From Janthinobacterium sp. SUN073 (GTDB lineage Bacteria; Pseudomonadota; Gammaproteobacteria; Burkholderiales; Burkholderiaceae_D): 64,000 nucleotides of DNA. The first letter of the stretch is position 1. Each line of letters begins with the position of its first letter. Shown here piece by piece: positions 5,159 to 19,032 of this stretch. Under the pieces are notes generated by a model that was not told where the DNA came from, searched no databases, and saw only the letters and a list, made by a program, of their open reading frames with translations. The stretch covers positions 1,320,781 through 1,384,780 of the forward strand of contig NZ_JAPUBT010000001.1 of assembly GCF_030397665.1 (NCBI RefSeq). The letters run 5' to 3'. Both the position numbers and the translations under genes were made by a program.

Positions 5159-6598
5159 TTATTGGCGCGACGCCGCAGGACGCGAATACAGGTCGATGAT
5201 GGTGCTGATGCCATCCTGGCATACGGAGCAGAACGTCTCGCTGCGGTCGAACATGATGCACTGCATCTCGGGCCGGTAGTAGCCGGACGACTCGTAGTTC
5301 GCGCCTTCGAAAGCGCCCACCGCATGGCGCTGCGGCGCCTTCGAGAACAGCTGCTGCGTGTACGCCAGGTCGGCCTTGAACAAGTCGCTCATCTCGCTTT
5401 CCGGGCGGTTGGCCGCGCGCAGGGCGGCGCGCTGCTTCTGGTATTGGCGCGCATGGCTGTCGTACGCTTCCTTCGGCCATGGCGTCGGCAGCGGCGTGCC
5501 TGCCTTGACGTGGTTCTGCCATTTCAGCCTGGCCGGATCGCGCAGCGCCGTGGCGTTCGGCTCCCACGGCTCCTGCCGCTCGCCATTCGACTGATAAGCC
5601 ACGGGCGAGGTGTAGTACTCGTCGGCCAGGCCGGCGAAATGGTGGCCGAATTCATGCACGAACAGGTAATTGGCCCAGTCGTTGTTGGCTGCGGCCGTGC
5701 TGAACTGGCCGAAGATGCCGCCACCGCCGTAGGTATCGTTATTGACGAGGATTTCGATGAATTCATACGGCGCATACTGCGCCAGGTCGCGCAGGGCGCG
5801 GTTGTCCGTCGTCAGCACATAACGCTCGCTGCCGAAAATATCGTAGCGCGTGCCCAGCGGCGACGCATGGTGCACGCCCGTTGATGGACGCGACACGCCC
5901 GATTCCTGCGTCGGCGCGGCCATGGCCCACACGTTGAAGTCATTGGCCCGCTCGCGGAACGGCGAGACCGTAAACAGGTGCTCGGCCAATTTCCGCGCCG
6001 TCGCTTCGAACTTGCCCATTTCGGCGGCCGTGTAGCCGTCGCCCATGATCAGCAGGTCGACCTTCCCGGACGAGGGGCCACTGATGCGGATCGGGATCGG
6101 CTTGACGGGTGCCGGCGGCTGCTTGCGGATCACGTCCTGCGCGGCCGGGTCGACATCGGTGCTCCACACAATGGAAAACAGGCCGCGCTCGTCGCGCTTG
6201 AGGATGCGCACGCGCACGGGGTGCTCGGGCTGCGGGAAACGCACGGATTCCTGGAACGCGCGCGTGGTGGTTTTCGCTTCATCGGTACTGGCCCATTCAC
6301 CGAAAATGGTGGAGAAGCCGCGCGAATACAGCACCTTGCCCGACTTGATGTCGACCACTTCCAGCAGGTTGTTGCCACGGTTGCTGTCATCGATGGGGCG
6401 CGCCAGGTTGCCCGGCCATGGCAAGGGCTCGACCAGCACGCGCTCGACCGCATAATGCTCGCCCAGCGCATTGCCACTGTGCTGGTAATCGAGGCGCATG
6501 GTGGCCGGCTGGGCGGCACCGGCAGCGTGCGCGACAGGGACGATGCCGGCGGCCAGCGCCAGCGCGCAGAGGAAGGATCGAATCGGGGTCTGCTGCAT
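5159..6598 (-). CDS. Secreted M64-family metallopeptidase (IgA-peptidase-like)
   Basis: Predicted exported zinc endopeptidase of about 479 residues. I chose ATG 6598 because it has AGGA at a good distance and opens a clean signal peptide (MQQTPIRSFLCALALAAG...AHA). The upstream in-frame Met would add a Cys-rich stretch that spoils this. An N-terminal beta domain (about 35-190) precedes the catalytic domain, which begins at VDLLIMGDGYTAAEMGKF. Zinc motif HEFGHHFAGLADEYY (from His315) matches the M64 pattern HEFGH-x(3)-LADEY. A C-terminal MQCIMF...FCSVCQ segment is also usual for M64 proteins. The gene stands alone on its strand, divergent from the TetR gene. The substrate is unknown; the IgA-peptidase name is historical. 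Confidence 0.85.
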   Translation of the reverse strand: MQQTPIRSFLCALALAAGIVPVAHAAGAAQPATMRLDYQHSGNALGEHYAVERVLVEPLPWPGNLARPIDDSNRGNNLLEVVDIKSGKVLYSRGFSTIFGEWASTDEAKTTTRAFQESVRFPQPEHPVRVRILKRDERGLFSIVWSTDVDPAAQDVIRKQPPAPVKPIPIRISGPSSGKVDLLIMGDGYTAAEMGKFEATARKLAEHLFTVSPFRERANDFNVWAMAAPTQESGVSRPSTGVHHASPLGTRYDIFGSERYVLTTDNRALRDLAQYAPYEFIEILVNNDTYGGGGIFGQFSTAAANNDWANYLFVHEFGHHFAGLADEYYTSPVAYQSNGERQEPWEPNATALRDPARLKWQNHVKAGTPLPTPWPKEAYDSHARQYQKQRAALRAANRPESEMSDLFKADLAYTQQLFSKAPQRHAVGAFEGANYESSGYYRPEMQCIMFDRSETFCSVCQDGISTIIDLYSRPAASRQ

Positions 6599-6773
6599 TT
6601 CATTCCTGACACGGTAGAAAAACGGGTAAAAGAAGCGGTTTTCCAAACAAACAGCGGCGCCAGCGGCGGGCATGGAAAAATCCGGTGCGGCACATTGTAG
6701 CGACAGGAATACGCACTGCAAAGCACCTATTTCACGCACCCGCTTGACCGCGCCACGCAATCCATTTATATTA

Positions 6774-7415: not shown

Positions 7416-8585
7416 GCGCCTCCATGCAAACCCGGCCCACGCGCATCGCCGACGTCGACGCCCTGCGCGGTTGCGCCCTGTTCGGCATTTTGGTCGTCAA
7501 TATCGGCGCCTTCGCCACGCCGTGGTTCGGCCTGGGCTTGACCGATCCGGCCTTTCACGGCGGCGTGGACCGCGCCACGCATTTTCTCGTCGCGCTGCTG
7601 TTCGAGACCAAGTTCTATCTGCTGTTTTCCTTCCTGTTCGGCTACAGCTTCACCTTGCAGATGCAGGCGGCGGCGCGCGCCGACGCGCCGTTCGTGCCGC
7701 GCATGCTGCGCCGGCAAGCGGGCCTGTGGCTGATCGGCGCCCTGCATGCCGTGTTGCTGTTTCATGGCGACATACTCACCACCTACGCCCTGCTGGGCAT
7801 CGTGCTGCTGGCAGTGCACCGCTGTGGCGAACGGCCCGCCCTGACCTTGGCCTTGATCCTCATCGCCGTCTGCGTGGCATTCTGGGCGGGTATGGCCTGG
7901 CTGCAAAGCCTGCAGCCGGCGGGCGACGCGGCGGACAACGCCGTGGCGATGGTGCAGAAGGCGGCGACCGCGCTGGCCGCCTACCGCGCCACCCCGGCCA
8001 CCGTCGTCCATCAGCATTTGCGCGAACTGAGTGACATCTGGATCGTCCTGCTGCTGGTGCAAGCGCCGTGCGCACTGGCCATGTTCCTGTGCGGCCTGGC
8101 CGCCGGCAAGCGCGAGATGCTGCTGCACGCCAGCGCATACCTGCCGCTGCGCCGCCGCCTTCTATGCGTGGACGTCCGTGTATGCGCAAAGCCAGGCATG
8201 GCAGGTGGCGGGACTGGCCGCAGGACTGGCGAGCGCGCCGCTGCTGGCCGGCGCCTACGTGGCGCTGGCGCTGGCCCTGTTCGAGCGCCTGCGTGACGGC
8301 ACGCTGTTTGCGCTGCTGGCCGATACGGGCCGCATGGCGCTGTCGAACTACCTGCTGCAGTCGGCCATCTGTGCCTGGCTGTTCCTTGCGTATGGCGCAC
8401 GGCTGATGGGCAGCGTCTCGCCGCTCGGTGCGCTGGCGCTGGCTGTCATCATCTTTTGCGTGCAGCTGCCACTGAGCCGCTGGTGGCTGCGCGGCCACGC
8501 TTATGGCCCCGTCGAGTGGCTGCTCAGGGCATTGACGATCGCCGCGTGGCCCCGCTGGCGGCGATCGCGCGCCGCCTATTTGTAG
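7412..8585 (+). pseudogene. DUF418-family membrane protein gene, frameshifted
   Basis: The first reading frame, from ATG 7412, encodes a typical DUF418/YeiB start (DVDALRGCALFGILVVNI), several membrane helices and LAAGKREMLLHASAYLPLRR near 8155. It then turns into Arg- and Cys-rich nonsense. The family sequence resumes one frame over at about 8155 (AAFYAWTSVYAQSQAWQ) and runs to the TAG at 8583-8585, including the DUF418 hallmark GRMALSNYLLQSAIC. A conserved stretch of roughly 10-15 residues between the two parts also seems missing, so the lesion looks like a deletion whose size is not a multiple of three, not a one-base error. The family is thought to be a multi-spanning transporter or acyltransferase-like protein. 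A sequencing collapse at the GCCGCC run cannot be excluded. Confidence 0.75.
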
Positions 8586-9829
8586 CGGTACAGGGGCTGG
8601 CGCAGCTGGATCGGGCGGATATCGAGGCGCAACTTCAGCACCGAATACGCTTCCGCCTCGGTCGAACTGTAGCCGACGCTGTTGACCGTTTTACTGAAGC
8701 GGAACTCGAAGCCCAGATCCGGGTACGGGTCGCGCGGGTTGCCGAAGGCGATGCCGATGGCTTCCTGCTGCGCGTTGTCGATCAGGTTGCCCATCAGGTC
8801 GAGCACGGCGTTATTGCCGAGGATATCGTTGGTAAACACGGGTTCGCGCATGTCGGGTTGGTTCGGATCGAGCTTGTTGTCGGCCTTGTCCGGTGACGGC
8901 GTAAATACGCGCGTGACGAGGTTGAATTTGTCGCCCCGGTCCAGATAGCTGATGGCCGCGTTGCTGATATTGAAATTTTTCACGCCACGGTCGCTGATGG
9001 CGCCCGACAGGTCGATCAGCAAGGCGCCGCTGTAGCCGATGACTTCCACGTCGCGCATGGCGTCGACCACCATGGCGCTGTTTTCATCGATACCCAGTCC
9101 CAGGTGATAGCCTTTTTTCAGCATCACGGGAATCATGCGCGCAAAGCGCCCGCGTACCAGCAGATGCTGGTCCACGAAGACATCGCTGCCGATGAAGCCC
9201 AGGCCCGGCGCAATCTCGCGGCCGTCCGTGACGCCCATCTTGAGCATGTCGAGCACGGGCTTGGCGTCATAGAACATGGTGGTGCTCATGATGGCGGCGC
9301 CGGCGCTGGAACCGGCGATCACGCCGCCATTGCGATAGACCGACCAGATGGCTTCCAGCGCGGCCGTGCGGCTGCCGTCCGGGCGCAGCAAGGCTTGCGT
9401 GATGCGGCCCTGGTCGCCGCCGGCAAAATAGATGCCGGTGGCCGACTTGATCTGCGTGACGATGGCCGGATCTTCGGCCGCCTTGCGGTAATCGCGATTG
9501 GGCAGCTTGACGGCCAGCGGCACGAAAAAGGCATCGGCGCCATATTGATTGAGTTTTTTAATGATGCTTTCACCCGACTTTTCGGGATTCATCGCAGCCG
9601 AGGCCAGCACGGCGATCCGCGCGCCCGGCCCGCCCGACAACTTGACGATGCGCTGCCAGACTTCGGCATTGTCGGCGCGCAGGCCGCCGCCGATGATGAC
9701 GAGGGTGCCCTGCGGGGCGCTGCCGATGGCACTGCCGCCAGGCGCCGCCACGGCATGGAAGCTGCACAATGCCAGCGCGAACAGCAGCGCGGCGCGGAAG
9801 GTGTGATACAGGCTTGAAGATGATTTCAT
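8576..9829 (-). CDS. Exported cyanophycinase-like serine hydrolase (peptidase S51)
   Basis: Cyanophycinases cut the storage polymer cyanophycin into beta-Asp-Arg dipeptides. The 417-residue protein starts at ATG 9829 with a signal peptide (Phe/Leu-rich core ending AVAAP), so it should act in the periplasm or outside the cell. S51 features: LVIIGGGLRADNAEVW at the start, FAGGDQGRI, nucleophile elbow IAGSSAGAAIMS with catalytic Ser175, and GLGFIGSDVFVDQHL followed by RGRFARM. The C-terminal extension of about 120 residues is longer than in cytosolic CphB. The gene follows the TonB-receptor gene by 145 bases on the same strand. Its last 10 bases overlap the end of the DUF418 gene. Other isoaspartyl or alpha-peptide substrates remain possible. 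Confidence 0.8.
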   Translation of the reverse strand: MKSSSSLYHTFRAALLFALALCSFHAVAAPGGSAIGSAPQGTLVIIGGGLRADNAEVWQRIVKLSGGPGARIAVLASAAMNPEKSGESIIKKLNQYGADAFFVPLAVKLPNRDYRKAAEDPAIVTQIKSATGIYFAGGDQGRITQALLRPDGSRTAALEAIWSVYRNGGVIAGSSAGAAIMSTTMFYDAKPVLDMLKMGVTDGREIAPGLGFIGSDVFVDQHLLVRGRFARMIPVMLKKGYHLGLGIDENSAMVVDAMRDVEVIGYSGALLIDLSGAISDRGVKNFNISNAAISYLDRGDKFNLVTRVFTPSPDKADNKLDPNQPDMREPVFTNDILGNNAVLDLMGNLIDNAQQEAIGIAFGNPRDPYPDLGFEFRFSKTVNSVGYSSTEAEAYSVLKLRLDIRPIQLRQPLYRYK

Positions 9830-9974
9830 GGTGCCTCTCGAATACATGGAAAGGGGCACGCGCCTGGCGCGCGCCCTTGCTGCCAAAACTGCTGCTTGCA
9901 ACCCAACGCCATCGAGCTACGATACTACCCGCTGCGTGTGACAGCCGTATTGCGGTATCTCCTGCTTTGCCGCC

Positions 9975-12743
9975 TTATTTGAAGCTGTAATTGGCGCTGG
10001 CATAGAAGCGCCGGCCGCGCGGGTCCGAATAAGTAGGGTCATAGCCGGACAGGAAGTAGTACGCCTGGTTCGAGTACGGCGGGCTGGTATTGAACAGATT
10101 CTGTATGCCCGCGCGCAGCTTGAACTGCTTGCTGACCGCATACGCGCCCGACATGTCCCACAGCGTGTAGGCCTTCACCCGGTTCGGCTTGACCACGCTG
10201 CCATCGTCCGTGTTGATGGCCGAGTTCTGGTCATCGTAGCCTGTCGAATACGTGTTCGACAGGCTGGCCGAATACGGGCCGTTATCCCAGTCCAGCGTGA
10301 TCGTATGGCGCCAGCGCTGTACCACGCCCTCCGTGACGAATTTATTCAAGTTACTGATAAACACGTCTCCAGGGCTGGTCTGGATTTTCGAATCGAGCAC
10401 GTAGGTGCCGCTCAGGTGGCCACCGAAACGCCCCCACGCCGTTTTCACGCCATGCAGGTCGGCCGTGATATCGATGCCCGAGGCTTTTTGCGCGCCGCGG
10501 TTCTCCTTGCGCAGCTCGATGTAGTCGATTTCATTGTCTTCGTCGCGGTGCACCAGGTTGCCGTACTTGGACAGGTTGGACAGGATGATGTCGTCGCCGA
10601 TTTCGCTGATCAGGTTCGTGCGCTTGATGTTCCAGTAGTCGGCACTGAAGGTCCAGTGCTGGCTCGGTTCGAGCACCAGGCCGGCCGTGAACTGGCGGCT
10701 GCGTTCCGGTTTCAGCTTGTCGTTGCTGTAGCGGCGCGTACGCCAGTTATCGGCGCAGACAGAGTAGTCGTTGTCCTCGGCTTCGCAGTACACGGGATCG
10801 GGCAGGGTCGCCGTCTGGCTGTAGACGGTGGGCCGGTGCAAGTCCGACATCGATGGCGCACGGAAGCCTTTGCCGGCCGAGGCGCGCAGCAGCACCTGCT
10901 TGCTGGGCATGTAGGTCAGGCCGATTTTAGGACTCAAGGCGCCGCCCACCTGCTGGTAATGGTCATAGCGGCCCGAGAGCTGCGCCTGCCACTGCTTGCT
11001 GAATGGCAGCAGCAGTTCGCTGTAGATGGCCTGCACATTGCGGCTGTCGCTGGTGGCCTTGCCCCCTTCTGGCGCGTCATCGTTGGTGATGTTATTACTC
11101 ATCAACAATGCGGATGGCCGGAAGTCCGTGCGCTCGCGCCGCACTTCGCCGCCCACGGCCAGCGCCAGGTCGCCGCCGCCCAGTGCCATCAGCGCGCGCG
11201 ACACCTTGAAATCGAGCGAGTCCATGACGCCGCGCGCATGCCGCACTTCGTCGTTGACCTGGATACTATCGAGCAGTGCCTTGCCTGCCGCGCTGGACGG
11301 GCCGAACGGATTGATGGAGCCATCCGTGATGCCCTTCTGAAGCTGGTCGGCCAGGAGGTAGCCGTGCGTGTCCTTGTCCCTGACCACGTTGACGCTGTGA
11401 TTCAAGCCAACGTCGTAATCCCAGCCGCCCACGGTGCCGGTAGCGCCCACCACGTAACGCTGGCTTTCGCTGGTCAATTCGCTGGTGCGCATGCCCGCTT
11501 CGTTCAGGCGGATGCGCAGGGCCAGCGTGCCAGTCAGCCCGGCCGCGCTCAGCTGCGGCACCATGCTGGCGTCGATTTCGCCATCCGGCCGCGCTGTCGA
11601 TCCCACGTAATAGCTGCGCGAACGGCTCAACGCCACCTCCGCATACAGTTGGTGGTCATTGTTCAATTTGAGGACGCCGCGCGTCAGCAGGTTCTGCTTG
11701 TCCGTCTTCGGATACAGCTCGGTGTCGCCCATGTAGTTATAGGTACACGCATCGACACCGCCCGTGCCCGACGGCAGATACACATTGGCAGGGCCGCTGC
11801 AGCCAGGAATCGACAGGTTGATGAGGCGATTCGTGATCGGCTTCCCATTGAGCAGGAAGCCCTGTTCCTGCAGGTAGTCGCGCTGGTCGCTGGAGAGGCG
11901 AATATTCGCCGGACTGGTATAGCTCGACAACAAATGGCCGAGGCGTTCCGGCACATACAGGTTCGGAATGAACTTGCGCTGCGAAGTGCTCAGGCGGTCG
12001 GTTTTTTGCAGGTCGACCACGGCAAAGATATTGTAGCCATCCGCCGCCAGGTCGCCCGTGCCGGCCGTGATGCTGGCCGTGCGCTTGCCGGCACCGCCTT
12101 CCTGCGTGCCGCTGCCGTAGACATTCAGCTCCACGCCCTGGTAATCCTTGCGCGTAATAAAATTGATGACGCCGCCGATGGCGTCCGTGCCGTACAGGGC
12201 CGAAGCACCGTCGAGCAATACTTCCACGCGCTGCAGGGCGGCGGCGGGAATGTTATTCAGGTCCACGCCCGCATCGTCGCCGGGCGAGGCAAAGTTGGCC
12301 ATGCGCCGGCCATTGAGCAGCACCAGCGTGGACGAAGTGCCCACGCCGCGCAGGTTGGCGCTGTTGAAGCCGCGCTGGTCGCCGCCCACATTAATGCTGA
12401 CGCCATCGGTCAGGCCGCCCACGTTGGCCGACACGCGCGCCATCAGCTCGGCCGCCGTCGTCACGCCCGCCTTTTCGATATCGGCGCGCGTGATGACCTG
12501 CACCGGCAGCGCCGTCTCCGATTCCAGGCGTTTGATGGCCGACCCCGTGATCTCCACGCGCTGCATTTTTTTCTGCGCCGGCTCGCCATCCCGCGCCAGC
12601 TCCTGTTCCTGCGCCTGCGCGCCGCTGGCCAGCATGCCCAGCGCCGCCGACACGCTCAAGGCGCCCAGCGCCAGGCGCACGCCTTGCGCCAGCAGCGACT
12701 CGCGTGGCAATACGGAACCGCCATCTTGTCTTTTCATGTACAT
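9975..12743 (-). CDS. TonB-dependent outer-membrane receptor
   Basis: Energised uptake of a large or scarce ligand across the outer membrane. About 922 residues. I prefer ATG 12743 because GGGGAGAG lies 6 bases before it; Met at 12737 is the alternative. The signal peptide ends near GAQAQE. The plug shows VEITGSAIKRLESETALPVQVITRADIEKAG (split here as VEITGSAIKRLE then PVQVITRADIEKAG) and LRGVGTSSTLVLLNGRRM. The barrel ends with RFYASANYSFK, a C-terminal aromatic signature for outer-membrane insertion. The plug resembles the large oxalobacterial and xanthomonad receptors used for peptides and sugars more than classical siderophore receptors. Flanking cyanophycinase and RpiR genes suggest the ligand is a peptide or dipeptide product; this is inference. 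Confidence 0.85.
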   Translation of the reverse strand: MYMKRQDGGSVLPRESLLAQGVRLALGALSVSAALGMLASGAQAQEQELARDGEPAQKKMQRVEITGSAIKRLESETALPVQVITRADIEKAGVTTAAELMARVSANVGGLTDGVSINVGGDQRGFNSANLRGVGTSSTLVLLNGRRMANFASPGDDAGVDLNNIPAAALQRVEVLLDGASALYGTDAIGGVINFITRKDYQGVELNVYGSGTQEGGAGKRTASITAGTGDLAADGYNIFAVVDLQKTDRLSTSQRKFIPNLYVPERLGHLLSSYTSPANIRLSSDQRDYLQEQGFLLNGKPITNRLINLSIPGCSGPANVYLPSGTGGVDACTYNYMGDTELYPKTDKQNLLTRGVLKLNNDHQLYAEVALSRSRSYYVGSTARPDGEIDASMVPQLSAAGLTGTLALRIRLNEAGMRTSELTSESQRYVVGATGTVGGWDYDVGLNHSVNVVRDKDTHGYLLADQLQKGITDGSINPFGPSSAAGKALLDSIQVNDEVRHARGVMDSLDFKVSRALMALGGGDLALAVGGEVRRERTDFRPSALLMSNNITNDDAPEGGKATSDSRNVQAIYSELLLPFSKQWQAQLSGRYDHYQQVGGALSPKIGLTYMPSKQVLLRASAGKGFRAPSMSDLHRPTVYSQTATLPDPVYCEAEDNDYSVCADNWRTRRYSNDKLKPERSRQFTAGLVLEPSQHWTFSADYWNIKRTNLISEIGDDIILSNLSKYGNLVHRDEDNEIDYIELRKENRGAQKASGIDITADLHGVKTAWGRFGGHLSGTYVLDSKIQTSPGDVFISNLNKFVTEGVVQRWRHTITLDWDNGPYSASLSNTYSTGYDDQNSAINTDDGSVVKPNRVKAYTLWDMSGAYAVSKQFKLRAGIQNLFNTSPPYSNQAYYFLSGYDPTYSDPRGRRFYASANYSFK

Positions 12744-12778
12744 TGCAACTCTCCCCGATGGTATATATCTGATTTTTA

Positions 12779-13777
12779 TCATGATTTTTTCACTGCCTTG
12801 CGCTGCCTGGATACTGCTTTCCGGGGCCCCGGCACGCCATGCTCGCCGCCGTACAGATAGGCGGCGATGACTTCGCTCAAGCGGGCCGCTTTTTCAACGT
12901 TCTTCTTGTTCGACACCATCAGCGCCACGGCCAGCGCCTCGATCATGGCCAGCGCCGTGCTGGCGCTGCTGGGCAGGACGGGATGCGTGCTTTGCGCATA
13001 CAGCGCGTGATCGGCCAGTTCGGCCAGGGGGGACGCGGGAGAGTCGGTGAGCGCCACGATGCAGGCGCCGCGGTCGCGCGCGAAGCTGGCCAGGCCGATG
13101 CAGTCGAGCGTGTAGCGGGGGAACGAGATCACCACCAGCACGTCGTGCGCCGTCAGGTTGACCAGATGCCCGGCCGCCACTTCCGAACCGCCGATGCCCA
13201 CCACTTCCACCACATGCGGGCAAAACGGCTGCAGATGCTGCACCAGCATGCCCGCCAGATTGGCCGACAGGCCAAAACCCATCACATACACTACCTTGGC
13301 GCGCGTCAGGCGCCGCACCACGGCCTGCATGGCGGGCGGCGACAGGGCATCGGACGTGGCGGCGATATTCGCGGCCGCATACTCCAGGCTTTCCGTGACG
13401 GGTGATGTGGCGCGCGCACGCCGTTCTATCGTACGGCGCAATTTGTCGACTGGCTGCAACAGCGATTGCAGGGTTTCGGCCATGGCGCCGCGCATGGCCG
13501 AATAATTCTTTTGCCCGATGTCGCGCGCGAAGCGACTGATGGTCGCCGTCGATACCTGGCAGCTATCGGCCAGCTCCTCGATGCCCAGCGCCGTCACGCG
13601 CATCTGGTTGCGCAGCAGGTAATCGGCGATCTGCCGCTGCGAGGCCGAGCCGCTGGCCAGCACGTGCATCAGCGTTTGCCCCAGCGGCGATTGCGCGAAG
13701 GCGGCATCGGGCGACGCCAGGGCGGCGGCCACGGGCGTGCGGGAGCTGTTGCGGGCAGGACTGGCGGATGATTTCAT
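12779..13777 (-). CDS. MurR/RpiR-family transcriptional regulator
   Basis: 332-residue regulator with an N-terminal HTH_6 domain (about 30-105; LADSCQVSTATISRFARDIG is the recognition part) and a C-terminal SIS domain (about 135-275; VYVMGFGLSANLAGML and VVISFPRYTLDCIGL). SIS domains normally sense phosphosugars; a few RpiR proteins respond to other catabolites. It lies 35 bases upstream of the TonB receptor and 202 bases from the divergent M14 hydrolase, so it is the natural local regulator of both units. An inverted repeat ATTTTCA/TGAAAAT between the two start points is a candidate operator. The C-terminus is a short basic tail (RKAVSRQRKAVKKS). Confidence 0.9.
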   Translation of the reverse strand: MKSSASPARNSSRTPVAAALASPDAAFAQSPLGQTLMHVLASGSASQRQIADYLLRNQMRVTALGIEELADSCQVSTATISRFARDIGQKNYSAMRGAMAETLQSLLQPVDKLRRTIERRARATSPVTESLEYAAANIAATSDALSPPAMQAVVRRLTRAKVVYVMGFGLSANLAGMLVQHLQPFCPHVVEVVGIGGSEVAAGHLVNLTAHDVLVVISFPRYTLDCIGLASFARDRGACIVALTDSPASPLAELADHALYAQSTHPVLPSSASTALAMIEALAVALMVSNKKNVEKAARLSEVIAAYLYGGEHGVPGPRKAVSRQRKAVKKS

Positions 13778-13894
13778 ATCACTGGCGGCCTGTGTTCTTG
13801 TGTATGGCGGATGACGGTTAAAAAGGCGAAAACGGGTCGCTGGAACTTACTCTACTCATATCAAAAAGAAAACTCAACAAATATTTGTAAAAGG

Positions 13895-13921
13895 ATTTTC
13901 ATTGATTTACTTCGTGAAAAT
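13895..13921. promoter_or_regulatory. Candidate RpiR operator in the divergent promoter region
   Basis: ATTTTCA (13895-13901) and its exact inverse TGAAAAT (13915-13921) are separated by 13 bases. The repeat lies just ahead of a -10-like CATAAT (13929-13934) for the rightward genes, so a bound protein would block that promoter. RpiR proteins commonly bind GAAA/TTTC inverted repeats. The region is markedly AT-rich compared with its surroundings. Confidence 0.45.
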
Positions 13922-13954
13922 AATGCTACATAATCGACCGAAATCCATCAACCG

Positions 13955-13971
13955 CGCCCCGTTTTGGGGCG
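13955..13971 (+). promoter_or_regulatory. Hairpin over the ribosome-binding site of the M14 hydrolase gene
   Basis: CGCCCC-GTTTT-GGGGCG forms a 6-pair stem with a 5-base loop, ending 8 bases before ATG 13980. Its right arm GGGGCGA is the only Shine-Dalgarno-like purine run available to that start, so folding would hide it. It may tune translation, or merely be a short palindrome. Confidence 0.35.
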
Positions 13972-13979
13972 AATTTACC

Positions 13980-15116
13980 ATGCAAGTACAACAGCATCCC
14001 ATCTCCAGCGCGCACGCCAGCGTAGCGTGCCAGTTGAGCAGCTTTCACTTTGGCACGGCGGCGGCCGGCAGCCGCAGTGGCAAGAAGGTGTATATCCAGG
14101 CGGCGCTGCACGCGGACGAAGTGCCGGGCATGCTGGTATCGCAATTTTTGCGCCGCGAACTGCTGGCGCTGGAGGCGGCGGGCAAGATCCACGGCGAAGT
14201 GATCCTGGTACCGGCCGCCAATCCCATCGGCCTGGCGCAAGCCATCCATGGCGCGCCGTTCGGCCGCTTCGACCTGACCACCGGCATCAACTTCAACCGC
14301 GCCTACCGCCACGTGGCCGATGAACTGAAAACCACGCTCGATGGCAAGCTGGGGCAGGATGCGCAAGCCAACGTGGCGCTGATACGCCAGCATGCGCGCG
14401 ACGCCGTCGCCGCCTGGCGGCCGTCCACGGATGCGGAGACGCTGAAAAAGACGCTGCTGGGCATGGCCATCGATGCCGACATCGTACTCGACCTGCATTG
14501 CGATAACGAGGCGGCCCTGCACATCTATACGGGCACGCCGCTGGCGGCGCAGATCGCGCCCCTGTCCGCGCTGCTGGGCGCGCGCGCCGTGCTGCTGGAA
14601 CTGGCGGCCGGCGAAGAGCCGTTCGACGAAGCCTGCAGCCGCCTGTGGTGGGACCTGGACGCACACTTCCAGGGCCGCTATCCGATTCCCGCCGCCTGCC
14701 TGTCGACCACCGTCGAATTGCGCGGCGAAGTGGAAGTGAGCTACGCCCTGGCAGAGCGCGACGCCACCGCCCTGCTGCGCTTTCTTGCCATCGAGGGCGT
14801 ACTGGAGATAGCCGGCGCCGGCGACGACCTGCCCGCACCGCAATGCGCTCCCACGCCGCTGGCCGGCGTGGAACCGATCCTCGCGCCGCATCACGGCGTA
14901 CTGGTGTACCTGCGCGAAATGGGCGAGGTGCTGGCCGCCGGCGATGCGCTGGCCGACCTGATCGATCCGGTCAGCGGCGAGACGACGACCTTGCGCTGCA
15001 GCGTCGCCGGAGTCTTCTTTGCGCGCAGCGCCCACCGCCACGTCTTGCGCGGCATGAACGTCGGCAAGGTCGCCGGCGCCATCGCCTTCCGCGACGGCAG
15101 CCTGTTGAGCCAATAA
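13980..15116 (+). CDS. M14-family zinc hydrolase, succinylglutamate desuccinylase/aspartoacylase type
   Basis: Cytosolic zinc hydrolase of 378 residues without a signal peptide. I chose ATG 13980 because the family sequence begins there; upstream codons from 13902 are basic and unlike it. Metal and catalytic residues are visible: His44-x2-Glu47 in ALHADEVPG, His173 in DLHCDNEA and the catalytic Glu246 in STTVELRGE. The C-terminal half has a barrel-like domain ending HVLRGMNVGKVAG. The family removes acyl or aspartyl groups from amino acids. An M14-type beta-Asp-Arg hydrolase (CphZ) is known to me from cyanophycin clusters. With the cyanophycinase opposite, hydrolysis of beta-aspartyl dipeptides to Asp and Arg is the best guess. 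The permease gene follows with no gap. Confidence 0.8.
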   Translation: MQVQQHPISSAHASVACQLSSFHFGTAAAGSRSGKKVYIQAALHADEVPGMLVSQFLRRELLALEAAGKIHGEVILVPAANPIGLAQAIHGAPFGRFDLTTGINFNRAYRHVADELKTTLDGKLGQDAQANVALIRQHARDAVAAWRPSTDAETLKKTLLGMAIDADIVLDLHCDNEAALHIYTGTPLAAQIAPLSALLGARAVLLELAAGEEPFDEACSRLWWDLDAHFQGRYPIPAACLSTTVELRGEVEVSYALAERDATALLRFLAIEGVLEIAGAGDDLPAPQCAPTPLAGVEPILAPHHGVLVYLREMGEVLAAGDALADLIDPVSGETTTLRCSVAGVFFARSAHRHVLRGMNVGKVAGAIAFRDGSLLSQ

Positions 15117-16514
15117 ATGTCACCCATGAGAAAGTTCAAGCTCCCCAACACCTTCGTCCTGCTGTGCGGCATCCTGGCCATGATCGCGCTGGCGACCTGG
15201 CTGGTGCCGGGCGGGAAATTCGACACGCAACTGGTGAACGGCAAGCAGCTGATCATTCCCGGCACGTTTCACTACGTGGACAACAAGCCGCAGGGACTGG
15301 CCGCGCTGATGATGGCGCCCATCAAGGGCTTCGTCGACGCCAGCCTGATCATCGGCTTCATCCTGATCGTCGGCGGCGCCTTCGCCGTGCTGCAAAAAAC
15401 GGAAGCCTTCGATTCGCTGATCAAGGCCATCGCCAAGGCGCATACCAGTTCGCGCTTCGTGCGCGCCGCCATCATTCCCGTCTTCTTCACCATGTTCTCG
15501 CTGGGCGGCGCCACTTTCGGCATGAACGAGGAAGCCATTCCCTTCATCCTGATCTTCGTGCCGCTGGCGCTGGCGCTGGGCTATGACACCATCACGGGCG
15601 TGTCGATTCCCTTCATCGGTTCGCAGGTGGGCTTTTCCGCCGCCTTTTTAAATCCGTTCAACGTCGGCATCGCGCAGGGCATCGCCGGCGTGCCGATCTT
15701 TTCCGGCATCGGCTACCGCCTGATCGTATGGGCCATCGCCACGGCCGTCAGCATCGTATTTTTGATGTGGTATGCGGCGCGCATCAAGCGCCATCCGGAA
15801 AAAAGCCCGACCTACCTGCTCGACATCGAAAAGCGCAACGAGCATTCGATGGACCTCGACAGCTTTGCCGGCATGACCCGCACGCACCGCGCGGTGCTGT
15901 GGATTTTCATGGCGACTTTGCTGACGATGGTCGTCGGCGTCGTCAAGTACGACTGGTTCATCGATGAAATCGCCGCCCTGTTCCTGGTGATGGCCATCGT
16001 CGTCGGCCTGGTTGGCCGGCTCGACATGGACAGCCTGGTGGCGTCCTTCGTGCAAGGCGCGCGCGACATGGTCAGCGTGGCGCTGGTCATCGCGCTGGCG
16101 CGCGGCACCATGATCCTGGCGCGCGATGCGCAGATCATCGACACCATGCTGCATGCGCTCACGCCCCTGGTGGCGTCGTCAAGCCCCGTCTTTGCCGCGC
16201 AAAAGATGTTCTTCATGCAGTCGGTGATCAACTTCTTCATCCATTCCGGCAGCGGCCAGGCGGCGCTGACCATGCCCATCATGGCGCCGCTGGCCGACCT
16301 GGTGGGCGTGACGCGCCAGACGGCCATCCTGGCTTTCCAGTTCGGCGAATTCACCACGCCGATGATTCCCACCTCCGGCATCACCGTCGGCGTGCTGGCG
16401 CTGGCGCGCGTGCCGTGGATTACCTGGGCCAAGTGGATGATCCCGCTGCAGCTGATTTATCTGGTGCTGGCGCTGCTGCTATTGATTCCGCCGTGCCTGA
16501 TGCACTGGCAGTAA
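15117..16514 (+). CDS. YfcC-family (DcuC/ArcD-like) inner-membrane permease
   Basis: 465-residue polytopic protein with about 12 membrane helices. Family marks include LPNTFVLLCGILAMIALATW at the start, VPGGKFD, GGATFGMNEEAIPFI, NPFNVGIAQGIAGVP and a late SGSGQAALTMPIMAPLADL; they match the YfcC/UPF0226-like C4-dicarboxylate and basic-amino-acid transporter superfamily. Members move dicarboxylates, or exchange arginine and ornithine. It begins directly after the TAA of the M14 gene, so the two are one unit. Uptake of an aspartyl dipeptide, or exchange of its products, fits the neighbours but is not shown by sequence. ATG 15126 is an alternative start. A hairpin with a T-run follows. Confidence 0.8.
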   Translation: MSPMRKFKLPNTFVLLCGILAMIALATWLVPGGKFDTQLVNGKQLIIPGTFHYVDNKPQGLAALMMAPIKGFVDASLIIGFILIVGGAFAVLQKTEAFDSLIKAIAKAHTSSRFVRAAIIPVFFTMFSLGGATFGMNEEAIPFILIFVPLALALGYDTITGVSIPFIGSQVGFSAAFLNPFNVGIAQGIAGVPIFSGIGYRLIVWAIATAVSIVFLMWYAARIKRHPEKSPTYLLDIEKRNEHSMDLDSFAGMTRTHRAVLWIFMATLLTMVVGVVKYDWFIDEIAALFLVMAIVVGLVGRLDMDSLVASFVQGARDMVSVALVIALARGTMILARDAQIIDTMLHALTPLVASSSPVFAAQKMFFMQSVINFFIHSGSGQAALTMPIMAPLADLVGVTRQTAILAFQFGEFTTPMIPTSGITVGVLALARVPWITWAKWMIPLQLIYLVLALLLLIPPCLMHWQ

Positions 16515-17634: not shown

Positions 17635-19032
17635 ATGACTGATCAATTCTCCAAAAAGGGCGAAGCCTGGTCGGCCCGGTTTTCCGAACCGGTCTCGGAC
17701 CTCGTCAAGCGCTACACAGCTTCTGTATTTTTTGACAAGCGCCTGGCGCTGTTCGACATCGAAGGTTCGCTGGCCCATGCGGAAATGCTGCATGCGCAAG
17801 CCATCATCAGCCCGGCCGACTACGCTGAAATCGTGCGCGGCATGGCGCAAATCTCGCAGGAAATCGCCGCCGGCCAGTTCGAATGGCTGCTGGACCTGGA
17901 AGATGTCCACCTGAATATCGAAAAACGCCTGACCGAACTGGTAGGCGATGCGGGCAAGCGATTGCACACGGGCCGTTCACGCAACGACCAGGTGGCCACC
18001 GACATCCGCCTGTACGTGCGTTCCGCCATCGACGACATCACCGCCCTGCTGGCGACGTTCCGCAGCGCGCTGACGGACCTGGCCGAACAGCATGCCGACA
18101 CCATCATGCCGGGATTTACCCACATGCAGGTGGCCCAGCCGATCACCTTCGGCCATCACATGCTGGCGTATGTCGAGATGTTCGGCCGCGATGCCGAGCG
18201 CATGGCCGATTGCCGCAAGCGCGTCAACCGCCTGCCGCTGGGCGCCGCCGCCCTGGCCGGCACCACCTTCCCCATCGACCGCCTGCGCGTGGCAAAAACG
18301 CTGGGCTTTGACGACGTCTGCCACAACTCGCTCGACGCCGTGTCGGACCGTGATTTCGCCATCGAATTTTGCGCCGCTGCCGCCGTGCTGATGATGCACG
18401 TGTCGCGCATGGCCGAGGAATTGGTGATCTGGATGAGCCCTCGCATCGGCTTCATCGACATCGCCGACCGCTTCTGCACTGGCTCGTCGATCATGCCGCA
18501 AAAGAAAAACCCGGACGTACCGGAACTGGCGCGTGGCAAGACGGGCCGCGTGTATGGCCACCTGATTGGCCTCTTGACCCTGATGAAAGGCCAGCCGCTG
18601 GCCTACAACAAGGATAACCAGGAAGACAAGGAACCGTTGTTTGACACCGTCGACACCGTCATCGACACCTTGCGCATCTTCGCCGACATGGCCGGCGGCA
18701 TCACGGTAAAACCGGAAGCGATGCGCGCGGCAGCCCTGCAGGGTTATGCCACGGCGACCGACCTGGCCGACTACCTGGTCAAGAAGGGCTTGCCGTTCCG
18801 CGACGCCCATGAAGCGGTGGCCCTGGCCGTGCGCGCCTGCGTCGATGCCGGTTGCGACCTGGCCGACCTGTCGCTGGAGCAGCTGCGCGCGTTTTCCCCG
18901 TTGACCGGTGAAGACGTGTTTGAAGTGCTGACGCTGGAAGGCTCCGTCGCCGCGCGCGACCACGTGGGCGGCACCGCGCCGCGCCAGGTGCGCGCCGCGA
19001 TCGCCCGCGTGCGCACGCAACTGGAAAAATAA
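17635..19032 (+). CDS. argH: Argininosuccinate lyase
   Basis: Final step of arginine biosynthesis: argininosuccinate to arginine and fumarate, in the cytosol. 465 residues, the usual length. The superfamily signature [12 protein letters not shown] is at residues 283-294. Also visible are [18 protein letters not shown] and the TRNxxD-type active-site region ([20 protein letters not shown]). It is monocistronic: a strong terminator follows at once and a separate promoter precedes it. Its position near the cyanophycin-like locus is probably coincidence, since that locus has its own terminator and argH is a housekeeping gene. Confidence 0.97.

Follow-up and report, generated by a model that had tools for sequence, protein, structure and literature searches.

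A probable cyanophycin utilisation locus in Janthinobacterium sp. SUN073 and its relatives

Introduction

Cyanophycin is a storage polymer rich in nitrogen. Extracellular cyanophycinases, CphZ and cyanophycin utilisation loci have already been published (PMC3235067, PMC10206079). The CphE enzyme of Pseudomonas alcaligenes is described as extracellular (PMC3235067), and a cyanophycin utilisation locus is understood as the combination of a cyanophycinase, an isoaspartyl dipeptidase and a transporter (Ben Hania et al., cited in PMC10206079). In Citromicrobium, a TonB receptor gene has been reported close to a cyanophycinase gene (PMC3400609). Most Betaproteobacteria that carry cphA1 have no recognisable cyanophycinase, which was described as unanticipated (PMC10206079). 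Here we describe a five-gene locus of Janthinobacterium sp. SUN073, located at positions 8576-16514 of a 64,000-nucleotide stretch of its genome (hereafter the window; contig NZ_JAPUBT010000001.1, positions 1,320,781 to 1,384,780). The locus combines an exported S51 cyanophycinase with a TonB receptor, an RpiR regulator, an M14 hydrolase and a YfcC-type permease. Judged from sequence comparison and structural models, it is most probably a cyanophycin utilisation unit.

Results

Five genes in two divergent units

The layout proposed in a sequence-only reading of the window is correct: five intact open reading frames (ORFs) are open at 8576-16514 in two divergent units. They carry the expected Pfam domains, namely Peptidase_S51; Plug and TonB beta-barrel; HTH_6 and SIS; AstE_AspA_cat; and DcuC. 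The leftward unit comprises the RpiR, TonB receptor and S51 genes and the rightward unit the M14 and YfcC genes, as follows.

8576..9829, minus strand: exported CphE-type cyanophycinase (S51), 417 aa, last in the RpiR-TonB receptor-S51 unit (TIGR02069, conserved residues, structure model)
9975..12743, minus strand: TonB-dependent receptor, likely start 12743 (PF00593 158.7 bits, PF07715 80 bits)
12779..13777, minus strand: RpiR-family regulator, leading the leftward unit (Pfam HTH_6 and SIS)
13886..13901, plus strand: candidate RpiR box 1, TGTAAAAGGATTTTCA (footprint alignment, matrix test, controls)
13906..13934, plus strand: candidate M14-YfcC promoter, TTTACT, 17 nt, CATAAT (conserved in alignment)
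13915..13930, plus strand: candidate RpiR box 2, TGAAAATAATGCTACA, between -35 and -10 and touching the -10 (footprint alignment, matrix)
13980..15116, plus strand: M14-family CphZ-type cyanophycin dipeptide hydrolase, 378 aa, no signal peptide seen (phmmer, structure model, residues)
15117..16514, plus strand: YfcC/DcuC-type permease, proposed inner-membrane dipeptide importer (PF03606 346 bits)

The likely starts of the S51 and M14 genes are the ATG codons at 9829 and 13980; the starts in the ORF list, 9901 and 13902, are upstream TTG codons. For the TonB receptor, the ATG at 12743 behind GGGGAG is likelier than 12782, to which the ORF stays open. Counted from these ATG codons, the earlier placement of Ser175 in S51 and of H44, E47, H173 and E246 in M14 is right, and the YfcC gene does start directly behind M14, with zero gap between the two.

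An exported CphE-type cyanophycinase

The S51 protein, the sole S51 of the whole genome, passes the curated cyanophycinase model TIGR02069 (137.2 bits, cut-off 126.6). Alignment to 3en0 finds Q140, S175, D220, Q221, H222, R226, R228, R231 and E249 in place. Among these, S175, H222 and E249 correspond to the catalytic Ser, His and Glu, and Q140, D220, R226, R228 and R231 to the pocket Gln, Asp and three Arg described for CphB and CphE (PMC3235067).

All four solved sequence relatives are named cyanophycinase or cyanophycinase-like, the best being 7uqv, titled pseudo-CphB. The AlphaFold model (predicted local distance difference test, pLDDT, 87.6) matches 3en0, 7uqw and 7uqv with a Z score of 30.3 at 2.0 A, and 6nqc with 23.0. 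Peptidase E-like enzymes reach 15-19, and peptidase E is ruled out on this ranking, which refers to the catalytic domain that filled the matches rather than to the C-terminal region at about 313-415.

By eye and hydropathy, the N-terminus is of the Sec type, with a single hydrophobic segment at 10-30 followed by AVA-A. The assignment as an exported CphE-type cyanophycinase, which agrees with the sequence-only reading, is thus well supported by sequence and model. The signal indicates export across the inner membrane only; depolymerisation would take place in the periplasm or outside.

Two unusual S51 forms were seen in relatives. In three loci (L130, L132 and L129), a divergent S51 branch has GGAQ replacing GGDQ and a TonB receptor, possibly with another specificity; in L130 and L132, M14 is present as well, together with a YfcC-like permease (34-35% identity). 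In Variovorax sp. PCZ-1 (L295:11946-14615), an 889-aa protein with a C-terminal cyanophycinase-like S51 domain with intact motifs adjoins RpiR, M14 and an ATP-binding cassette (ABC) importer. It has a lipoprotein-like start (LCAC, by eye) and a long unassigned N-terminal part, and is perhaps a surface-anchored cyanophycinase.

A CphZ-type dipeptide hydrolase

The best solved phmmer match of the M14 protein is 8EIN/8EIP (E 5e-74). Both entries are titled CphZ of Acinetobacter baylyi, and 8EIP is the E251A variant with beta-Asp-Arg; our literature search found no publication mentioning 8EIN. The M14 model (pLDDT 93.5) superposes on 8EIP with a Z score of 51.9 and a root-mean-square deviation of 1.6 A over 367 residues. 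Lower in the ranking are 3FMC, of unknown function, at 40.0 (two function-unknown structures reach 40), the ectoine deacylase DoeB (6TWM) at 26.7 and AstE (2BCO) at 19.2.

With 51.9 for CphZ against 26.7 and about 19, structure groups the protein with CphZ and rules out an ectoine or succinylglutamate deacylase, settling a comparison that the sequence-only reading had left to be made. The zinc ligands and the catalytic Glu (H44, E47, H173 and E246) are kept, and E246 aligns with the Glu-to-Ala position of 8EIP. Sequence and model therefore support well the kind of enzyme, a CphZ-type zinc hydrolase, which would split the cyanophycin dipeptide in the cytosol.

The genome has no PF01112 match, the mark of IaaA, and its best TIGR01975 (IadA) score is 28.9 bits for a cut-off of 331.25. 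With one S51, no IaaA and no IadA over the cut-off, the genome has no recognised enzyme for either degradation step besides S51 and M14.

In a tree of 90 M14 proteins, from which frames below 330 aa (L106, L122) were dropped beforehand, the S51-linked members, all from the family sample, fall into one group with a support of 0.99, together with some unlinked family members. An M14 gene alone is weak evidence for cyanophycin use, because none of the 38 M14 loci from a phylum search has an S51 or CphA match nearby. At least an Arg-type binding-protein relative lies near M14 in 28 of these 38 loci, the other 10 being without.

Two side observations concern this enzyme. One family genome (G052, L106:7709-8501) has its M14 gene, which adjoins S51, broken into two pieces that lie in different frames, and may have lost the dipeptidase. 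Pyrenophora fungi are reported to have horizontally acquired cyanophycinase and aspartoacylase-type genes, both predicted secreted (PMC3612039), which could together form a fungal cyanophycin pathway.

Conservation of the gene set

The five genes occur together in 8 of the 8 genus members examined, the genome of the window included, and in rearranged form in other genera. For example, Undibacterium terreum (L237) has all five genes in one direction, and in Roseateles and Paucibacter the TonB receptor is divergent from S51-M14-YfcC. Duganella-type loci are missing RpiR and mostly have two S51 copies; several loci are reduced to S51 and M14. The set thus survives rearrangement, and the conserved neighbourhood anticipated by the sequence-only reading is found.

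Across 145 family genomes, an S51 match of any kind is present in 43 and the long CphE type in 40. The latter were hand-picked at a minimum of 43% identity over most of the protein, with a partial copy in G044 and with G009, which has fragments, left out. An M14 protein of at least 50% identity is found in 37 genomes, counting G052, where the gene is split in two, and G021, where its pieces lie on two contigs and M14 occurs without S51. Both proteins are present in 36, so that S51 and M14 co-occur in 36 of the 40 S51 genomes, and they are linked in 28 of the 36 having both.

In many genomes of the family, the S51 locus has an M64 peptidase gene and argH on its two sides (window 5159-6760 and 17635-19032; argH named by Pfam of a relative), and this also holds for loci lacking the genes for the TonB receptor, RpiR and YfcC.

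A candidate importer for the dipeptide

The permease belongs to the DcuC superfamily (PF03606, 346 bits) and scores 385 bits against the NCBIfam YfcC model NF008611, below its cut-off of 500. Its context was compared in an 80-locus M14 set, the best 80 of at least 587 confirmed matches. This set partly overlaps the family genomes (for example, L235 is the contig of L077 and L258 is that of L099) and is not independent of them; its M14 proteins from six Janthinobacterium relatives are 87-96% identical to that of the window.

YfcC adjoins M14 in 36 of the 80 loci and ABC-importer genes do so in 18, as judged by Pfam of example loci. None has both, and 26 have neither (6 cut by contig ends, 3 with a binding protein only). 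The usual ABC arrangement is binding protein - permease - permease - M14 - ATPase. The 40 S51-linked loci divide into 34 with YfcC, 5 with ABC genes and 1 with neither, one of the 40, L295, being counted on the strength of a distant S51 (25% identity and 94.9 bits, under the cut-off).

Hybrids of S51 with an ABC importer are found in Noviherbaspirillum galbum (L258), Roseateles toxinivorans (L283) and two metagenome-assembled genomes (MAGs; L267, L291). The S51 proteins of L258 and L267 pass TIGR02069, and that of L283 narrowly misses it (126.0 vs 126.6). All four binding proteins pass the Lys/Arg/Orn model TIGR01096 at 256.35 (L258 273, L283 270.9, L267 256.8, L291 274.5); those of L187 (234.2), L285 (242.7) and L295 (226.3) are below this cut-off.

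Since relatives replace YfcC by an Arg-type ABC importer around M14, and never have both, YfcC is probably the inner-membrane importer of beta-Asp-Arg, exchangeable with the ABC system. This is the main new proposal of our analysis. The sequence-only reading had the dipeptide split first and transported afterwards; YfcC is better read as acting before cleavage. Sharon et al. are said to have reported in 2023 that a Pseudomonas aot operon with the CphZ-type AotO supports growth on beta-Asp-Arg. If so, YfcC occupies the place of a proven dipeptide importer elsewhere.

YfcC could instead exchange or export a product such as Arg, Asp or ornithine, as suggested by its NCBIfam label of putative basic amino acid antiporter. 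We consider this improbable: the permease misses the cut-off of that very model, and in similar loci YfcC takes the place of an import-type system without ever accompanying it.

The importers also bear on the substrate. In many genomes, M14 relatives have neither S51 nor CphA in their vicinity, as would be expected if the locus scavenged isoaspartyl peptides in general, from damaged proteins, instead of cyanophycin. Such a role is very unlikely given that the S51 model matches cyanophycinases over peptidase E (Z 30 vs 15-19) and that Arg-type importers occupy the same position as YfcC.

A candidate regulator and its boxes

RpiR relatives of 57-100% identity are present in 17 of the 145 family genomes, the next RpiRs listed being at most 37% identical. 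A full S51 accompanies 15 of the 17, a partial one is found in G044, and G009 has fragments (one on the contig of its RpiR). RpiRs of 50-55% identity stand beside the M14-ABC operons of Variovorax (L295) and of a MAG of Methylobacterium (L285). A small tree joins them to the locus RpiRs and separates them from controls (split 0.997).

In a search of 398 genomes of the phylum, the top RpiR from beyond the family came from G513 (42-43%), where the gene neighbours S51, an OprD porin and a binding protein (L218). For the ten remaining RpiRs (30-39%), the 4-kb loci contain neither S51 nor M14 nor any importer gene.

The classical phosphosugar loop of RpiR SIS domains is of the S-x-S-G-x-T type. The locus RpiR lacks it, with ISFPRYT where 4IVN has SSSGST. 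This motif was dropped as a mark of a special ligand, as FPRY or a close form is also found in control RpiRs.

A footprint alignment of the gap between RpiR and M14 reveals two conserved 16-bp boxes, one of them between the -35 and the -10 of the candidate promoter. A promoter search gave 2 sites in the region for a shuffle mean of 2.5, hence no excess. We built a box matrix from 14 sites of 7 loci and scored 15 of the 22 loci with an RpiR of this kind, six Janthinobacterium loci and L237 being left out. All 15 reach at least 18.4, as do all 13 clean ones, which exclude L235 (same locus as L077, used in the matrix) and L248 (a 2727-base stretch).

Outside this set, the scores are 20.0 for L295, 18.4 for L218 and 15.7 for L285. 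No good box is seen in L234 and L256 (11.4 and 11.1), where S51 is divergent from M14 and RpiR is absent. As controls, none of 632 windows of the 64 kb reaches 18; of 462 AT-rich windows of the loci, 9 reach 18, 3 reach 20 and 0 reach 22, the sole one above 21 being the RpiR promoter of L237. We make no claim for a genome-wide regulon, as the box pattern occurs at 4 places with at most 1 mismatch compared to 2 in a reversed control.

These sequence patterns place RpiR in a group associated with loci of this kind and make the conserved boxes over the promoter its probable targets.

Source of the polymer

The sequence-only reading noted that the window holds no cyanophycin synthetase, and nothing contradicts this, though the same contig does carry two. 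CphA1 (973.8 bits, above the cut-off) and a tandem CphA' paralogue lie at C1:576595-581377 (L142), about 0.75 Mb from the locus in a genome of 6.4 Mb. This undercuts the further conclusion that the polymer would be supplied by other organisms: with CphA1 and CphA' encoded in the genome, foreign polymer is not the sole possible source.

CphA is found at E 1e-100 or better in 109 of the 145 family genomes, with 39 of the 40 having a CphE-type S51 and 70 of the 105 others (Fisher 3e-5, uncorrected for kinship). Together with the synthetases and the exported sole S51 of this genome, the association raises the question of whether the locus mainly recycles cyanophycin released by lysis of its own cells or kin, rather than cyanobacterial polymer. 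We hold this to be unlikely: an export signal should keep S51 from intracellular granules, a TonB receptor implies an external substrate, and common descent together with incomplete genomes may account for the association with CphA.

The TonB receptor and the site of depolymerisation

In the 80-locus set, 36 of the 40 S51-linked loci have a relative of the TonB receptor no more than 9 kb from M14. The dipeptide alone would need no such receptor, and the Sec-type N-terminus brings S51 only to the periplasm. Both points fit a selfish uptake, in which the receptor imports polymer or oligomers and S51 acts in the periplasm instead of being secreted to the medium. There is a real chance of this, though we would not put it as high as even. 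Three points speak against it: the CphE of P. alcaligenes is extracellular (PMC3235067), cyanophycin is poorly soluble (PMC10206079), and in one genome (L218) the neighbour of the S51 genes is an OprD porin in place of a TonB receptor.

That locus (L218, from genome G513 of the same class) encodes two S51 proteins, an OprD porin, two binding proteins, an ABC ATPase and RpiR, and is a possible porin-based counterpart of the TonB version.

Discussion

We propose that the locus is a cyanophycin utilisation unit working as follows. S51, exported by Sec, would act as an exo-cyanophycinase and free beta-Asp-Arg in the periplasm or outside. The TonB receptor would take cyanophycin-derived material, oligomers or dipeptide, across the outer membrane, and YfcC would move beta-Asp-Arg across the inner membrane. 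The cytosolic M14 enzyme would then cleave beta-Asp-Arg into Asp and Arg. RpiR may bind the two boxes over the divergent promoter region, repressing both units until an inducer appears, perhaps the dipeptide or a product.

Several observations weigh against this proposal. A dipeptide of 289 Da should pass porins, which leaves the need for a TonB receptor unexplained. The exported S51 is almost confined to CphA genomes, which fits the recycling of own or kin polymer equally. The window M14 is only about 38-40% identical to A. baylyi CphZ, and 8EIN falls outside the S51-linked M14 group, among weakly supported branches of the wider family. Four of the 40 S51 genomes (G027, G106, G121, G133) are without M14 at 50% identity or more, and S51 and M14 are apart or on separate contigs in 8 of 36 (G018, G056, G067, G079, G098, G126, G139, and G044, where they are on short contigs). 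For the regulator, the L218 RpiR groups with controls and not with the locus RpiRs despite standing beside S51. Finally, all 5 Duganella-type loci tested, of 7 without a local RpiR, keep box 2 at 20.7; three Duganella-type genomes (G040, G089, G120) have no RpiR at E 1e-40.

A bolder version of the proposal is a self-contained selfish system for a polyamide reserve polymer, in which the TonB receptor imports poly- or oligomeric cyanophycin and S51 is periplasmic. YfcC would be a new kind of beta-Asp-Arg permease standing in for the aot-type ABC importer. The RpiR group would be the first regulators devoted to cyanophycin catabolism, with an isopeptide or amino acid as their signal in place of a sugar phosphate. 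Taken as a whole, this combination is doubtful.

The locus gives a family of common bacteria a testable route to live on cyanophycin, and provides this route with a probable permease for the dipeptide and, probably, a regulator of its own. The genome encodes cyanophycin synthetases, yet the one cyanophycinase recognised in it is exported, which sharpens, and does not solve, the question of how inner granules are used.

The sequence-only reading had called the combination little described. This is not the case for the locus type, CphE, CphZ or the pairing of receptor and cyanophycinase (PMC3400609). It stands for the regulator, as a literature search, thin on subscription papers including the CphZ paper, found no publication joining cyanophycin and RpiR. 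On that search, the full gene set, the likely own regulator and the swappable inner-membrane importer appear little described.

Comparison with known systems

CphZ of A. baylyi (8EIN, 8EIP) is the nearest solved structure to the window M14, with a similar length and the same catalytic residues, including the mutated Glu. Unlike it, the window M14 adjoins an exported cyanophycinase, a TonB receptor and YfcC. In the aot operon of Pseudomonas, the CphZ-type enzyme is reportedly embedded among the genes of a Lys/Arg/Orn-type importer, an arrangement that L187 and many loci of our set also show. There ABC genes surround CphZ, whereas the window M14 has RpiR before it and YfcC directly after, with no ABC genes.

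The S51 protein shares with CphE of Pseudomonas (CphEal, CphEpa) its kind, an N-terminal export signal, a length of about 420 aa, the Ser/His/Glu triad and the pocket Gln, Asp and three Arg (PMC3235067). Compared with the published description of CphE, one position differs: CphEal has Thr223 where the window S51 has Gln221, as in CphB. Citromicrobium sp. JLT1363 resembles the window in having the receptor gene close to the cyanophycinase gene and differs in that the passage on it mentions no dipeptidase, permease or regulator (PMC3400609).

The scavenger-locus setting of Table 4 in PMC10206079, which is not a strict definition, is a genome without cphA1, and the present genome departs from it. 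With the cyanophycin utilisation locus of Ben Hania et al., as cited in that paper, the window shares the clustering of cyanophycinase, isoaspartyl dipeptidase and transporter, the dipeptidase being assigned by similarity only. It differs in that a CphZ type replaces IadA or IaaA, in that cphA1 lies elsewhere in the genome, and in the addition of an RpiR regulator and a TonB receptor.

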